From contig NZ_CP051682.1 of NCBI RefSeq assembly GCF_012849215.1, positions 1,550,001-1,614,000 on the forward strand: a stretch of 64,000 bases of DNA, written 5' to 3'. The translations under genes and the position numbers were made by a program. Source of the stretch: Mucilaginibacter robiniae. GTDB taxonomy: Bacteria > Bacteroidota > Bacteroidia > Sphingobacteriales > Sphingobacteriaceae. A model generated the notes under the pieces. That model had not been told where the DNA came from and ran no database searches. It saw only the letters and a program-made list of their open reading frames with translations. Of this stretch, positions 37,002 to 43,558 are shown piece after piece (position 1 is the first letter of the stretch; every line of letters begins with the position of its first letter).

Positions 37002-37694
37002 TTACTCGTACACAAATTTGTACCCTACCCCGCGTACCGTTTGTAGAAACTGCGGAGAATCAGGGTTGCTTTCAATCTTTTTACGCAAACGCACAATATG
37101 CATATCCAGCGTGCGGGTGTTTACATCGGCATTGTAGCCCCACACTTCCATCATCAGCTCTTCGCGGTTAATTACCTTGTTTTTATTTTTCAGGAAATAT
37201 AGTAAAATGCGGTTCTCCAAAATGGTTAACTCCACTTTTCGGCCACTCTTAATCAGCAAGTGCGTGTTGGGGTGGTGCTCCATATCGGCAAACCGATACA
37301 CTTCTGATTTTTCGTTGCTATTAAGCGAAAACTTAATTTTATTATCAATCATGGCCACCAGCACATCCATATTGAAGGGTTTGGTGATATAATCAGATAC
37401 ACCAAAGTTGTAAGCTTCAATCTTGTCTATATCCTGTGCTTTAGCCGTCATCATGATCACTAGCTTATCAAAACCTTGCTCACGAATCTCCGCGCACACC
37501 TCCGACCCCTGCTTACCAGGCAGCATCCAGTCCAGCAAAACAATATCGGGCTGGTTTTCTAATATTACCTTTTCGGCCTCAATACCGTTGGCGGCTTCCA
37601 GTACTTTATACCCTTCGGTTTCCAAACGTTCGGCTACTAAAAAGCGCAGATTTTCGTCGTCTTCTACCAGTGCTATTTTAATTTCTGTGTTCAT
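37002..37694 (-). CDS. OmpR-family response regulator
   Basis: A 230-residue transcription factor. The receiver domain has the acidic pair at 11-13 (VEDDENLRF), phosphoacceptor Asp55 (VLLDWMLPGKQG) and the conserved Lys in YITKPFNMDVL. The winged-helix DNA-binding domain follows (REELMMEVWGYNADVNTRTL, then DMHIVRLRKKIESN) and ends VRGVGYKFVYE. It is the downstream partner of the histidine kinase (3-base gap) and resembles the RprY type. The regulon is unknown. Confidence 0.93.
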   Translation of the reverse strand: MNTEIKIALVEDDENLRFLVAERLETEGYKVLEAANGIEAEKVILENQPDIVLLDWMLPGKQGSEVCAEIREQGFDKLVIMMTAKAQDIDKIEAYNFGVSDYITKPFNMDVLVAMIDNKIKFSLNSNEKSEVYRFADMEHHPNTHLLIKSGRKVELTILENRILLYFLKNKNKVINREELMMEVWGYNADVNTRTLDMHIVRLRKKIESNPDSPQFLQTVRGVGYKFVYE

Positions 37695-37697
37695 GTT

Positions 37698-39341
37698 TTA
37701 ACTTTCGTAAGGCAGTGTTATCATAAATTCAGTGCCCTCATTCAGCTTACTTTTTACGGTTATGTCTCCGTTCATAAAGTTAACCAGTTCTTTGCAAAAA
37801 GCCAAGCCCAAGCCTACGCTTCCATTTTGGTTATATTGGTTTTCTATGCGGTAAAACTTTTTAAAGATATTATTTATTTCGTTTTTCGGAATACCTATGC
37901 CCTTATCGGCAAACGAGAATAAAATATTACGCCTTTCATGAGTAATGGTGATATGCAACTCTTTACGGTCGGGGTTAGAGTATTTATAAGCATTCTCAAT
38001 CATGTTCTGAAATATACTGCCTAATAACACCGGATCGGTGTAAAAGTTGTACACGCTGCTTACTTCGTAACTCAGTTTAAAGTTCGGATATTTAATGCTG
38101 AACGTGTCTATATACTTCTTAACAAAATTTTCCAGGTGTATTTCTTCCTTATGCAGTTTGATGGAGCGGTTTTCAATCTGCGTAAAGGAAAGCAGCTTGT
38201 TCATCAGATCATTCAGCTTGTCAGCTTCTTCATCCAGAATGCGACCGTAATGCTTGCGCTGCCTTTCGGTAAGCTCCCCTTCACCCCGTAAATTAGAGCC
38301 CGCAATTTTAATAACACTTACCGGCGTTTTAAACTCATGCGTAAAGTTGTTAATGAAATCATATTGCAGCTTAAACAACTTCATATTTACGCTCAAGTTA
38401 CGGTAAATGAGCCAGCCTATGGTTACCAGAAATATATAAATTAGTAATACAATAGCTGCAGTAGGCATAAAGCGATGGTTGGTTTCAGCTACCAAATGAT
38501 TTTTCTCTGATTGAAAATACAGCTTATAATCAGCAAAAGCACCTGGAAAAGCAACTTCTGTAGCTGTTAACTTAGGGTCCTCATTCAATGGGTCATATAC
38601 AATGGGCTGAATAGAGATTTGCTGATATAGCTCAGGATGAGTATTTTTTATTTTTAAAGAGTTAGGATTCAGCAAGAAAGTCATCATGTTTTGCTTATAC
38701 AATGATGCTGGCTTACCGGTTACTTGCATAATCCGATAACTTTTAATCTCTTCCCGACTAGGAATATTTAGGTAACTGATTTTATCTGGCTTTACGTCAT
38801 AAAAAGCCTTATAAATTTCATCTTGGTTGGGTATGCGTGAGGTATCAGCTGTAGTGATATAGTTGTTAAACTTGGCAGCAACAGAGGTAAAATCATCATT
38901 GGCAACTGTTGCGGGTCTACGTTGTCCTTGCAGCGTCCCGCCCTTTACCGAATATTGGTAAACACGATTAACAGCTGTAGCCAAATCAGTGCTTTGTAGC
39001 TGGCTATGGGGTTTGCTGCCGATGGTAATAACCCGGAACACAATCTGCTTAACAAACGGATAATCTTTAAAAACAGAATCCGAGTAATTTGCAGCAGATG
39101 CAGAATCCAAGAAGCCCTGATACGAAGTAATTTCGGGTATACGGTTTTGAAAAAAATCGTTGTAAGGCTTAATGGTTTGCTCCAGCACACTGATTTTGCG
39201 GAAATTAAATTCATTTTCCACATTGCGAACGGTTAAACGATACGCAATAATTAAGGCAATAATGAGGGTAACTGATATTAAAACCAGAAATGCCGTAATA
39301 AGCACAAAGTTTTTATGATATCCTTGCTGATGTGCTTTCAT
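37698..39341 (-). CDS. Membrane sensor histidine kinase
   Basis: A 547-residue protein. Two transmembrane helices (~13-34 and ~296-318) bracket a periplasmic domain of about 260 residues with no recognised fold. The kinase core has the phosphorylated His335 in NFTHEFKTPVSVI, the N box MIENAYKYSN, G1 DKGIGIPKNE, the F box and G2 GSVGLGLAF. It lies between the S9-like lipoprotein (17 bases) and the response regulator (3 bases), all on one strand. The large periplasmic domain could read a signal from, or bind, that lipoprotein (inference). Confidence 0.92.
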   Translation of the reverse strand: MKAHQQGYHKNFVLITAFLVLISVTLIIALIIAYRLTVRNVENEFNFRKISVLEQTIKPYNDFFQNRIPEITSYQGFLDSASAANYSDSVFKDYPFVKQIVFRVITIGSKPHSQLQSTDLATAVNRVYQYSVKGGTLQGQRRPATVANDDFTSVAAKFNNYITTADTSRIPNQDEIYKAFYDVKPDKISYLNIPSREEIKSYRIMQVTGKPASLYKQNMMTFLLNPNSLKIKNTHPELYQQISIQPIVYDPLNEDPKLTATEVAFPGAFADYKLYFQSEKNHLVAETNHRFMPTAAIVLLIYIFLVTIGWLIYRNLSVNMKLFKLQYDFINNFTHEFKTPVSVIKIAGSNLRGEGELTERQRKHYGRILDEEADKLNDLMNKLLSFTQIENRSIKLHKEEIHLENFVKKYIDTFSIKYPNFKLSYEVSSVYNFYTDPVLLGSIFQNMIENAYKYSNPDRKELHITITHERRNILFSFADKGIGIPKNEINNIFKKFYRIENQYNQNGSVGLGLAFCKELVNFMNGDITVKSKLNEGTEFMITLPYES

Positions 39342-39358
39342 ATAAGCCGGCGTTAAAG

Positions 39359-41260
39359 CTATCGTTTAACTTTCAAATGGGCATTTAAAAATCTTTCAAT
39401 CTGTGCGTACATCTCCATACGATTACGCTCATTTTTAAAGTAAGTACGTTCGTTATCTTTTAAAACATAAGTTACTGAATCGCCATGGTTTCTGAGCTCG
39501 CGCACAAACTGGTTTAGCTCGCTAATGTTGGCGCTAGGGTCTTTAGCGCCTTGAAAGATTAGTAAAGGTGCCTTAATTTTATCAGCATGAAACACCGGCG
39601 AAATAGCTCGCAGCTGGTTAGCATCCGTTTCCGGGTTACCCACCATTTCATAGTTCATTTGCAGATAGGGTTTAAAAAACGGTGGGCCATGCTTAAAGTA
39701 AGTAAAAAAGTTAATTAACCCGTATTGTACAATGGCACAGTTATAAAGTTCCGGATGGAAAGATACACCATATAGTGCCGAAAAGCCGCCAAAGCCACCG
39801 CCGAAAATAGCTATTCGTTTCGGATCAGCAGTTCTTCGTGTAATCAGCCACTTTACGCCATCAGTAATATCATCCTGTATTTTGCCACCTACCTGCTTAA
39901 ACCCGGCACTTTTAAATGCCTTACCATACCCGGTTGATCCCCGGTAGTTTACCTGAAAAACAGCGTATCCCCTATTGGCTAAAAACTGAACATCGGCACT
40001 ATACCCCCAATTATTACGGCCCCACGGGCTATTATACGGTCCATTGTGCGGCATAACCACTACCGGCAAGTTGGTTTTATTGTTACCTCGTGGCAGGGTT
40101 AAGTACCCGTTAATCAGCATACCATCCGATGCCTTAAAGGCAACAGGCTGCATTGAACATAACTCATCAGGGTTGATGCTGGCATTCAGGTTGCCCAACT
40201 CGGTTAGCTTGCCTGTATTGCTTTCATAAAGGTAATACGTGCCTGGGTTACGGTCGGTATAAGTATCAATAATAAACTTCTTTTCGGCACTATCACGCCC
40301 TACAAAACGAATAACGCCGCCATTCAGATGCTTTTTAATATCCTGGTAAATGCGTTTAGCACTTGTATCGAGGTAAAACTTGTGAGGTTTAGCATCTTCC
40401 CAACCTGCATATTCAATACAACTTTTTTTAGAAGAATACCCTACTTCCAGTATATCGGCCTTATTACCGGCATACACAGTTTTTACTTCTTTACCGTTTT
40501 CCGCATTAATTTCAACCACAGCCATCTTATCGCGGTTTACGTTAGATAAGGCATAGAAATTAGCCCCCTTACCGGTAAAAACAATCGGGATAACGGAGTT
40601 TTTAAAATTATTTTTGATGATAGGTCTGAATGCTCCGCTTTCGGTAGCGCGGTACAAAATGGTTTCATCCACCCCATCCGAAGCTTTGGCTAAACGAATT
40701 TTACCGTCATCATCAGGGTACCACTCAATGATATTGCCTGGGTTTTGCAAATAAAGCTTCAAATTGCCGGTTTTGATATTTAACTGATAAACATCAAACT
40801 TGGCCGAATCACGCTTATTAGAAGTAATAGTGATAATATCAGGCTGATTTCTGCTGCAATTCAGCAAGCGCATGCGCACCTTGGCTTCATTCAGTAAGTT
40901 GCGCAAGTGCAAGGTATTTACATCCAGCGCATACATTTTAAATTTATCCTGCGTAATGATATCCTGTACAAAAACCAATTGATTATTGTACGTCCAGAAA
41001 TAATCACGTACCGGGTAATCACTAAATGAGGTAGCCATGGTTTCTTTACCATCTGCTAAGGATTGAATAAACAGGTTTTGCTTATCTTTATAGGGTTTCA
41101 GATACGAAACGTATTTACCATCAGGCGATATTTTGAAAAAGCTTTTCTCCGGCGTTTTGAAGAAATCCCGTACAGGTATTTGCCTTTCGGCTGGTGTATG
41201 GCACCCTAACCATACAGGAATAACAGCGAAGAAAAGTATGAACTTTAAACGGTTTAACAT
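39359..41260 (-). CDS. S9-family (prolyl oligopeptidase-like) lipoprotein lacking catalytic Ser and His
   Basis: From the ATG at 41260 it has 633 residues: lipobox WLGC (Cys20), an N-terminal beta-propeller to ~380 (KISPDGKYVSYLKPYKD), and a C-terminal alpha/beta-hydrolase part with VFQVNYRGSTGYGKAF. The nucleophile elbow reads IFGGGFGGFSALYG: the Ser of the usual GxSxGG is Gly489 (GGC, one transition from AGC). The usual EGHGF histidine region reads ERTYF, with Thr606 in place of His. Asp in QGAKDP is kept. It is therefore very likely inactive as a peptidase. It heads the histidine kinase/response regulator operon. A 36-residue longer start was rejected because it would bury the signal. Confidence 0.85.
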   Translation of the reverse strand: MLNRLKFILFFAVIPVWLGCHTPAERQIPVRDFFKTPEKSFFKISPDGKYVSYLKPYKDKQNLFIQSLADGKETMATSFSDYPVRDYFWTYNNQLVFVQDIITQDKFKMYALDVNTLHLRNLLNEAKVRMRLLNCSRNQPDIITITSNKRDSAKFDVYQLNIKTGNLKLYLQNPGNIIEWYPDDDGKIRLAKASDGVDETILYRATESGAFRPIIKNNFKNSVIPIVFTGKGANFYALSNVNRDKMAVVEINAENGKEVKTVYAGNKADILEVGYSSKKSCIEYAGWEDAKPHKFYLDTSAKRIYQDIKKHLNGGVIRFVGRDSAEKKFIIDTYTDRNPGTYYLYESNTGKLTELGNLNASINPDELCSMQPVAFKASDGMLINGYLTLPRGNNKTNLPVVVMPHNGPYNSPWGRNNWGYSADVQFLANRGYAVFQVNYRGSTGYGKAFKSAGFKQVGGKIQDDITDGVKWLITRRTADPKRIAIFGGGFGGFSALYGVSFHPELYNCAIVQYGLINFFTYFKHGPPFFKPYLQMNYEMVGNPETDANQLRAISPVFHADKIKAPLLIFQGAKDPSANISELNQFVRELRNHGDSVTYVLKDNERTYFKNERNRMEMYAQIERFLNAHLKVKR

Positions 41261-41419
41261 GATATAGCTAGCACACCCCTTTACTTTTAAAAATCTCAAA
41301 GTAGAGAATTTTAAATTAGTGAAGCGCAATGTCACTACAATTTTACCCGTTGTAAATAAACTAAACACTTAGTAAACAGGCTAATTATAGCTATGTTTAA
41401 AGATGTATTTTTTAACCGA

Positions 41420-43237
41420 ATGAAGCATATACTTTTATGTTTGGCCATTTGCCTGATTAGTGTAACTGCCTTACGGGCACAAAACAGCGATTTACAACTA
41501 GCGCATCAGTTTACCATAAATGGTGAGGAGCAAAAGGCACTGGATATTTATCAAAAACTCTATAAACAGGACAATGATAACTATTATAGCTATTATCTGA
41601 ACAGCTTGCTTAACCTGAAAAAGTATGATGAGGCAGAAAGCATTACCAAAAAGCAATTGCGCAAGCATCCGCAAGATAATCAGTATGCCGTGGCTTTAGG
41701 CCGCATTTATACACAGCAAGGCCATGCTGATAAGGCCAATGCGGTTTACGATGATTTATTAAAAAGCCTGCCGCCCGACCAGAATGCCATTGCCAACTTG
41801 GCTACCCAGTTTTATCAGGCCGAAAATGTAGATTATGCCATTAAGATATTTCAGCAGGGCCGTAAGCTGCTGCACAACAATATGGTATTTTCTATGGAAC
41901 TGATTAGTTTGTATCGTTACAAGCGCGACAAGGCTGCACTAACTGAAGAATACCTGAATTATCTGCCTGAAAACCCTATGTACATGAATCAGGCCGAAAG
42001 CACACTAGCATCGGTATATGAAGGGGAAGCAGATTATAATGTATTACGCATGAGTTTGCTAAAGCATATTCAAAAAGATCCGCAACAGCTGGTTTATACG
42101 CGTTTACTTACCTGGATGTACCTTCAGCAAAAAGAGTATGACCAAGCGCTTAATCAAGTTTTGGCTATAGACAGGCGCCTGAAAACTAGCGATGGTAATG
42201 ATATTTATGAACTATGCCGCACACTGACCGATAACCAGGCTTATGACGAGGCTATACGGGGTTATGAATATTTGCTTACTAAATATACTAAAGGCGATGA
42301 GCTATACATTCCTTCAAAAATTGAATTATTAAATACCCGTAGCCTGAAAATCACCTCCGGTAAATATCAACCAGCTGATTTACTGCTTTTAGAAAAAGAC
42401 TATAATGATTTATTGAACGAGTTTGGACGTACTGCCAGTACCGTGTTTGCTATGCAAAAACTAGCTAATCTGGAAGCTTTTAAGTTGCACAAGCTTAATG
42501 AGGCTCAGCATTTACTGGAACAGGCTATTGCCATTCCTAATATACGGCCACAACTATTGGCAGGTTGCAAATTAGATTTAGGCGACGTTTATTTAATGAA
42601 CAATCAGCCTTGGGAAGCTACCCTTATTTACAGCCAGGTAGAAAAGGCTTATCCAGGCACTTCTATGGCGCAAGATGCTAATTACCGGAATGCCAAGCTG
42701 GCTTATTATACCGGTGATTTTACCTGGGCTAAAGGTCAGCTCAACGTGTTAAAAGCAGCTACCTCGCAGTTAATTGCTAACGATGCCTTAAACTTATCAC
42801 TACTCATTAGCGATAACATTGTAGCGGATACTACCGGTGCTGCGCTGAAAATGTATGCCCGTGCCGATTTACTTATATTTAAAGAAGAACCCGAAAAAGC
42901 GCTATTGACATTAGATAGTATTGATAAGAAGTTTCCGAGCAATACCTTAGTTGATGATATCTTAATGGCTAAAGCTCGTATTTTGATTCAGCAGAAGAAT
43001 TATACAGCGGCTATAATGCCTTTAAAAACTATTAGCGAAGAGCACAAATTTGATTTATGGGCTGATGATGCGGTATATATGCTGGGCGATGTTTACGAAA
43101 ACCAGCTGCATGATAATGCAACCGCCAAAACTTACTACCAGAAAATTATAACCGATTACCCAGGTAGTATTTGGATTGGAGAGGCACGTAAACATTTCAG
43201 AATATTACGGGGCGACAGACCAGATACTTCATCATAA
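41420..43237 (+). CDS. Secreted TPR-repeat protein
   Basis: From the ATG at 41420 it has 605 residues with a signal peptide (MKHILLCLAICLISVTALRA). The rest is tandem TPR-like helices: EEQKALDIYQKLYKQDNDNY and AVALGRIYTQQGHADKANAV early, then DDAVYMLGDVYENQL and AKTYYQKIITDYPGS near the end. The function is unknown; such proteins scaffold envelope complexes in this phylum. The short in-frame upstream ATG (41393) would place polar residues before the signal and was not used. DUF4286 and rmlC follow on the same strand. Confidence 0.8.
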   Translation: MKHILLCLAICLISVTALRAQNSDLQLAHQFTINGEEQKALDIYQKLYKQDNDNYYSYYLNSLLNLKKYDEAESITKKQLRKHPQDNQYAVALGRIYTQQGHADKANAVYDDLLKSLPPDQNAIANLATQFYQAENVDYAIKIFQQGRKLLHNNMVFSMELISLYRYKRDKAALTEEYLNYLPENPMYMNQAESTLASVYEGEADYNVLRMSLLKHIQKDPQQLVYTRLLTWMYLQQKEYDQALNQVLAIDRRLKTSDGNDIYELCRTLTDNQAYDEAIRGYEYLLTKYTKGDELYIPSKIELLNTRSLKITSGKYQPADLLLLEKDYNDLLNEFGRTASTVFAMQKLANLEAFKLHKLNEAQHLLEQAIAIPNIRPQLLAGCKLDLGDVYLMNNQPWEATLIYSQVEKAYPGTSMAQDANYRNAKLAYYTGDFTWAKGQLNVLKAATSQLIANDALNLSLLISDNIVADTTGAALKMYARADLLIFKEEPEKALLTLDSIDKKFPSNTLVDDILMAKARILIQQKNYTAAIMPLKTISEEHKFDLWADDAVYMLGDVYENQLHDNATAKTYYQKIITDYPGSIWIGEARKHFRILRGDRPDTSS

Positions 43238-43241
43238 TTTA

Positions 43242-43249
43242 TAATTTTG
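43242..43249 (+). promoter_or_regulatory. Promoter element of the DUF4286 gene (TAATTTTG)
   Basis: An exact TAnnTTTG match ending 7 bases before the ATG at 43256, overlapping the end of the intergenic gap. Transcription would start at the start codon. Confidence 0.5.
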
Positions 43250-43255
43250 CTGTAC

Positions 43256-43558
43256 ATGATTATTTATAACGAAACCTTTGTGATAGATGATACCATTGAA
43301 CAGGAATGGCTGCAATGGATACAAAAGGAACATATACCCGCAGTTTTAGCTACCGGGCTCTTTGATAATCATCAGATTTTAGCCGTGCTGGATTCACCTA
43401 ACGAAGGAGCCACTTACTGTATTCAATACATGACAGATGATATTAACAAATATCATCAATTTAGCAGCACCCATGTGCATCGGTTACATACCTTACACAA
43501 TCAGCAGTTTGAAAATCGATTTGTGTTGTTCAACAGCTTGATGAAAACGATAAACTAA
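43256..43558 (+). CDS. DUF4286 family protein
   Basis: A 100-residue cytoplasmic protein beginning MIIYNETFVIDDTIEQEW. The pattern WLQWIQKEHIPAVLATGLF and YCIQYMTDDINKYHQF fits the DUF4286 family, a ferredoxin-like fold of unknown function that is common in Bacteroidota. The frame is open a little further upstream (from a TTG at 43247), but the promoter element at 43242-43249 favours this ATG. The stop is 2 bases before rmlC. Confidence 0.8.
   Translation: MIIYNETFVIDDTIEQEWLQWIQKEHIPAVLATGLFDNHQILAVLDSPNEGATYCIQYMTDDINKYHQFSSTHVHRLHTLHNQQFENRFVLFNSLMKTIN

Follow-up and report, generated by a model that had tools for sequence, protein, structure and literature searches.

Results

Organization of the operon

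The window, a stretch of 64,000 nucleotides from the chromosome of Mucilaginibacter robiniae, carries three closely spaced genes on the minus strand, which code for an S9-like lipoprotein, a sensor histidine kinase (HK) and a response regulator (RR). The features, in window positions, are as follows.

39359–41260, minus strand: S9-like pseudo-peptidase lipoprotein, 633 aa, with signal peptide, lipobox Cys20, beta-propeller and alpha/beta-hydrolase domain, and Gly489-Asp574-Thr606 at the catalytic positions
37698–39341, minus strand: sensor histidine kinase, 547 aa, with HisKA and HATPase_c domains
38454–39242, minus strand: extracytoplasmic sensor domain of the kinase (about aa 34–296), family-restricted, possibly dCACHE-like
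37002–37694, minus strand: OmpR/PhoB-type response regulator, 230 aa, with Response_reg and Trans_reg_C domains
41329–41347, minus strand: conserved element GGTAAAATTGTAGTGACAT, which can be read as a direct repeat GTAAAAT-TGTA-GTGACAT with an 11-bp pitch, candidate binding site of the regulator
41297–41303, minus strand: -7-like box TACTTTG (TAATTTG in most relatives), putative promoter of the operon

Only 17 bases separate the S9 gene from the kinase gene, and 3 bases the kinase gene from the regulator gene; such gaps on one strand indicate a single transcript. The S9-like protein matched Pfam Peptidase_S9 (PF00326) with E=2.4e-40. The other two proteins carry the signatures of a two-component system, namely HisKA/HATPase with the H-box His in the kinase, and the receiver Asp and a winged helix in the regulator. 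No NCBIfam model listed for any of the three proteins attained its curated cut-off. A divergent gene (41393–43237, plus strand) codes for a TPR protein whose true start is likely at 41420, which would give it the signal peptide MKHILLCLAICLISVTALRA; a small conserved protein is encoded 3′ of it (43247–43558), and both genes are kept beside the operon in most Sphingobacteriaceae genera.

The S9-like lipoprotein lacks two of the three catalytic residues

We compared the S9-like protein with the solved S9 peptidase 5l8s, of the acylaminoacyl-peptidase type. An AlphaFold model (pLDDT 82.5), for which 25 orthologues were used, superimposed on 5l8s over both domains with a TM score of 0.79, and the hydrolase domains were also similar in sequence; the protein is thus predicted to have both the propeller and the hydrolase fold. 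In the alignment, Gly489 takes the place of the Ser in GGSYGG, and Thr606 that of the His in EGHGF, whereas the triad Asp (Asp574) and the glycines of the nucleophile elbow are retained. The protein therefore has Gly489-Asp574-Thr606 in place of the Ser-Asp-His triad of active S9 peptidases. It also differs from 5l8s in being a lipoprotein and in the place of its gene, which lies in an operon with a kinase gene. Residue 489 is specified by GGC (window 39794–39796, minus strand). The lipobox reads ..VWLGC20, and of 134 family orthologues at least 93% have Cys20; in most copies 11–14 residues form the tether between this lipid-bearing Cys and the folded domain. An earlier reading made from the sequence alone had proposed the fold, both substitutions, the lipoprotein signal and the coordinates, common strand and tight spacing of the three genes, and all of these held up, including the 17-base gap when measured again.

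The trio is conserved throughout the family

In a search of 301 Sphingobacteriaceae genomes (threshold E<=1e-30) an S9 match was found in 291, representing 22 of 25 genera (numbered below with the prefix g). The S9-HK-RR trio was present in all 22 of these, and wherever a family locus that was read had an intact S9 gene, the kinase gene came directly after it. The trio is ancestral to the Sphingobacteriaceae. Many genera also retain the genes for the TPR protein, rfbC, a UbiA-like protein and a phosphoesterase as neighbours, and the linkage carries a lower weight because much of the neighbourhood is syntenic. The trio nevertheless remains intact where the TPR gene is missing (g4, g6 and g15), and stays tight where the TPR gene has been lost along with other neighbours (g4, g6, g15, g16 and g17).

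The exception to the conserved linkage is g11, a genus with genomes of about 2 Mb (loci L190–L194), in which the TPR gene is divergent from HK-RR and the S9 gene is absent between them. The g11 kinase is nested among kinases that have an S9 partner (95% SH-aLRT) and groups with that of g23, an S9 bearer, and so the S9 gene was lost in g11 while the kinase persisted. In two complete g16 genomes (L145/L153 and L151) S9 is split over two frames next to an intact kinase gene, reflecting either a pseudogene or an assembly error. The kinase is therefore not strictly dependent on S9. The complete genome G067 has neither the S9 nor the kinase gene, and in G262 the S9 locus falls at a contig end. Two other apparent anomalies were dismissed: a 1200 aa open frame in G041 that resembled an S9-HK fusion has a stop between both genes, and the in-frame stops in g4 S9 matches are merely the terminal stop codon within the matched stretch.

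The catalytic triad was lost repeatedly under purifying selection

The full triad is absent in 114 of the 134 family orthologues, with the Asp retained in 111 of these 114 triad-less copies. The His is missing from each Mucilaginibacter copy read, and the position of the Ser, which is absent nearly always across the genus, is occupied by Gly, Arg, Trp or sometimes Ser. That these absences extend through the genus had not been stated in the sequence-only reading. In the same operon, a full triad is found in g6, g8, g13, g15, g22, g23, g24 and g25 and in parts of g17, g18 and g21. Such homologues had been named in the sequence-only reading as a sign that the window copy results from a recent mutation or a sequencing error; they do exist in other genera, but the loss in Mucilaginibacter is genus-wide and old, which rules out both explanations.

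Outside the family, all eight close relatives (~40% identity) bear the triad, and no kinase of this type was found in the flanking DNA read for them. Paralogous S9 genes of g4, g16 and g20 (L144 and L146–L150; 33–35% identity, frames of 667–791 aa) have the full Ser-Asp-His, and such a kinase was likewise not found in the adjoining DNA read; the other S9 paralogues examined also keep the triad.

Triad states were mapped on a maximum-likelihood tree of 91 sequences, calculated with the catalytic columns left out and with the non-family relatives as outgroup. Unordered parsimony required at least 11 changes. With regain excluded, 12 losses were counted on the resolved tree, 9 when forks with less than 80% support were collapsed and 8 when those with less than 95% were. 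Since both same-operon copies and close outside relatives bear the triad, the module is reconstructed as having started with a triad-bearing peptidase, and the triad as having been lost independently 8–12 times; triad-less proteins occur in the window genus and in at least seven other lineages. Ser is lost while His is kept in several lineages (g2, g18, g19 and g21), the reverse being seen in Mucilaginibacter only, which suggests that the nucleophile is the first residue to be replaced, usually by Gly. Close Mucilaginibacter species (loci L006–L066) switch among Gly, Ser and Arg at this nucleophile site, as if the site drifted among one-step codons after His had been lost.

The dN/dS ratio (Nei-Gojobori) of close triad-less S9 pairs was 0.010–0.065, against 0.012–0.067 for the kinase. 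These values exclude neutral decay for the triad-less lineages compared, and indicate that the dead S9 copies are, like the kinase, under strong purifying selection. The sequences thus support a catalytically dead lipoprotein that is real and selected; with its catalytic residues gone across the clade under such selection, it has the expected hallmarks of a pseudoenzyme.

The kinase has a family-restricted sensor domain

The kinase H-box and the phospho-acceptor Asp of the regulator are intact in nearly all loci, most misses being frames cut by the locus end. The extracytoplasmic sensor domain occurs once in the M. robiniae genome and in 4 of 119 genomes of the class, all four from Sphingobacteriaceae. 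Sequence searches of PDB and Pfam with this domain returned no convincing relative. A structural model of the domain (pLDDT 83) comprises two alpha/beta parts in addition to a long helix at the N-terminus. The top Foldseek matches were dCACHE domains (5wbf, E 4.2e-4, probability 0.97), with TM scores of only about 0.3–0.4, and Pfam dCache did not match the domain; the sensor is therefore possibly dCACHE-like, which we regard as a lead and not as an assignment.

A conserved element precedes the operon

About 70–90 bases ahead of the S9 start lies an element with the consensus GGTAAAATT[GA]TAGTGACA. It can be taken as two 7-bp half sites, GTAAAAT and GTGACAT, separated by four bases, and is followed by the -7-like box. 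Direct 7-bp half sites at an 11-bp pitch are the layout of OmpR/PhoB-family sites, and the regulator may autoregulate the operon through this element. The exact element was present in 61 of 195 loci (some of which overlap) and is nearly invariant within Mucilaginibacter. Related forms occur in g2, g3, g4, g5, g8, g16, g23 and g24; no such element could be recognised in a number of other genera, g14, g20 and g21 among them, and none was found before HK in g11, which has lost S9. Without mismatches the element occurs once in the M. robiniae genome. Matches with two mismatches stayed at control level in ten genomes, giving no sign of a wider regulon, and the looser matches in M. robiniae do not lie ahead of obviously related genes. 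The stretch can be read in frame as GKIVVT in the window, but a coding leader was rejected, as the distance to the start varies by non-multiples of three and third positions are invariant.

Discussion

The above results show an ex-peptidase gene persistently coupled to a two-component system. The lipoprotein probably works by binding rather than by cutting, and is perhaps a helper of the kinase. In the mechanism we favour, the S9 protein would be lipid-anchored in the periplasm, its old propeller/hydrolase cleft would bind a peptide or another envelope ligand, and it would alter kinase activity through the extracytoplasmic domain of the kinase; the regulator would feed back on the operon via the upstream direct repeat. 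Triad-bearing versions presumably share the same non-catalytic role, which would explain why the triad was lost so often. Such a non-catalytic function must be older than the losses, as proteins with and without the triad are encoded in the same operon.

We put the probability that the S9 protein acts by binding as a co-sensor of the kinase at about 0.5. The fuller scenario, in which a lipoprotein peptidase partnered the kinase by binding and in eight or more independent instances became a pseudoenzyme co-sensor, falls a little short of an even chance. The co-sensor role had been the central proposal of the sequence-only reading. Its support lies in a selected, dead S9 protein that stays coupled to a kinase with a family-restricted sensor, whereas g11 drops S9 and keeps HK-RR, and the kinase itself possesses a large sensor domain, both of which speak against an obligate co-sensor.

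The main competitor, a credible account although one to which we give clearly less than an even chance, is that the S9-like protein is an output: an envelope protein (peptide-binding, chaperone or scaffold) that HK/RR controls via the upstream element and that makes no contact with the kinase. The element indeed sits before S9 and was not found before HK in g11, and the kinase survives the loss of S9. The lipid tether is short, so that an S9 protein anchored in the outer membrane would hardly reach a kinase in the inner membrane, and branch rates of S9 covary with those of the sensor (+0.45) hardly more than with those of the neighbouring TPR protein (+0.41). It is because of the tether, g11 and the rate covariation that our confidence in a co-sensor stays near one half. 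Against an output stand the control-level frequency of looser element matches, which leaves S9-HK-RR as the only visible target, and the confinement of the sensor domain to the family in which the S9 partner occurs. A co-sensor is favoured over a co-regulated envelope protein because of the linkage, this shared taxonomic restriction and the parallel losses of the triad.

Conserved synteny of an unrelated pseudo-peptidase and two-component system, within a chromosomal stretch that is stable in the family, would account for the TPR, rfbC, UbiA-like and phosphoesterase neighbours being kept as well, but is improbable given the 17- and 3-base gaps of what appears to be one transcript and the tightness of the trio where those neighbours are gone. 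That the S9 protein is still an enzyme, with a rearranged or different chemistry, is very unlikely. Asp574 and the elbow glycines are kept and some Mucilaginibacter copies have the Ser; however, the residue at the nucleophile position switches among Gly, Arg, Trp, Asn and Ser, the His loop is freely variable, with deletions, and no conserved substitute nucleophile is apparent. Least probable of all is a decaying pseudogene or a sequencing error, an explanation to which the split g16 frames and the gene loss in g11 lend some colour; the other family copies read are full-length, the dN/dS values of the triad-less pairs are low and the substitutions are genus-wide, the last two points refuting it for Mucilaginibacter.

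Both halves of a co-sensor have parallels. LuxP and LuxQ combine an accessory periplasmic binding protein with a kinase that has a large extracytoplasmic sensor domain. This layout resembles the one proposed here, although LuxP is a periplasmic binding protein and not an ex-peptidase. Besides this binding-protein/kinase pair (PMC5394107), the lipoprotein QseG activates the kinase QseE (PMC12691602); its gene, too, is clustered with those of the kinase and regulator, and by analogy the S9 protein of the window is a candidate activator. QseG, however, does not belong to the S9 family, works from the outer membrane and has a proven contact with its kinase, where the contact proposed here is putative. 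Catalysis-free functions of the S9 fold via protein contacts also have precedents. DPP6 and DPP10 are S9-fold proteins with non-catalytic functions of this kind. The S9 relative PREPL has functions that survive a Ser-to-Ala substitution (PMC11385081). In contrast to the protein described here, all three are eukaryotic and act without a two-component system, and PREPL still has serine-hydrolase activity. A search of the open-access literature, which takes in few subscription journals, found no description of a dead S9 peptidase that is coupled to a two-component system; kinase accessory proteins and pseudoenzymes are each known separately.

Because the triad was lost repeatedly under strong selection and orthologues that bear it persist in the same operon, binding versus cleavage as the function can be tested directly. 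If the co-sensor reading is true, a comparison of the triad-bearing and triad-less operons would amount to a natural experiment on how signalling comes to dispense with catalysis, and the S9 protein would give a first clue to what is sensed by a kinase that spans nearly the whole of an environmental family.
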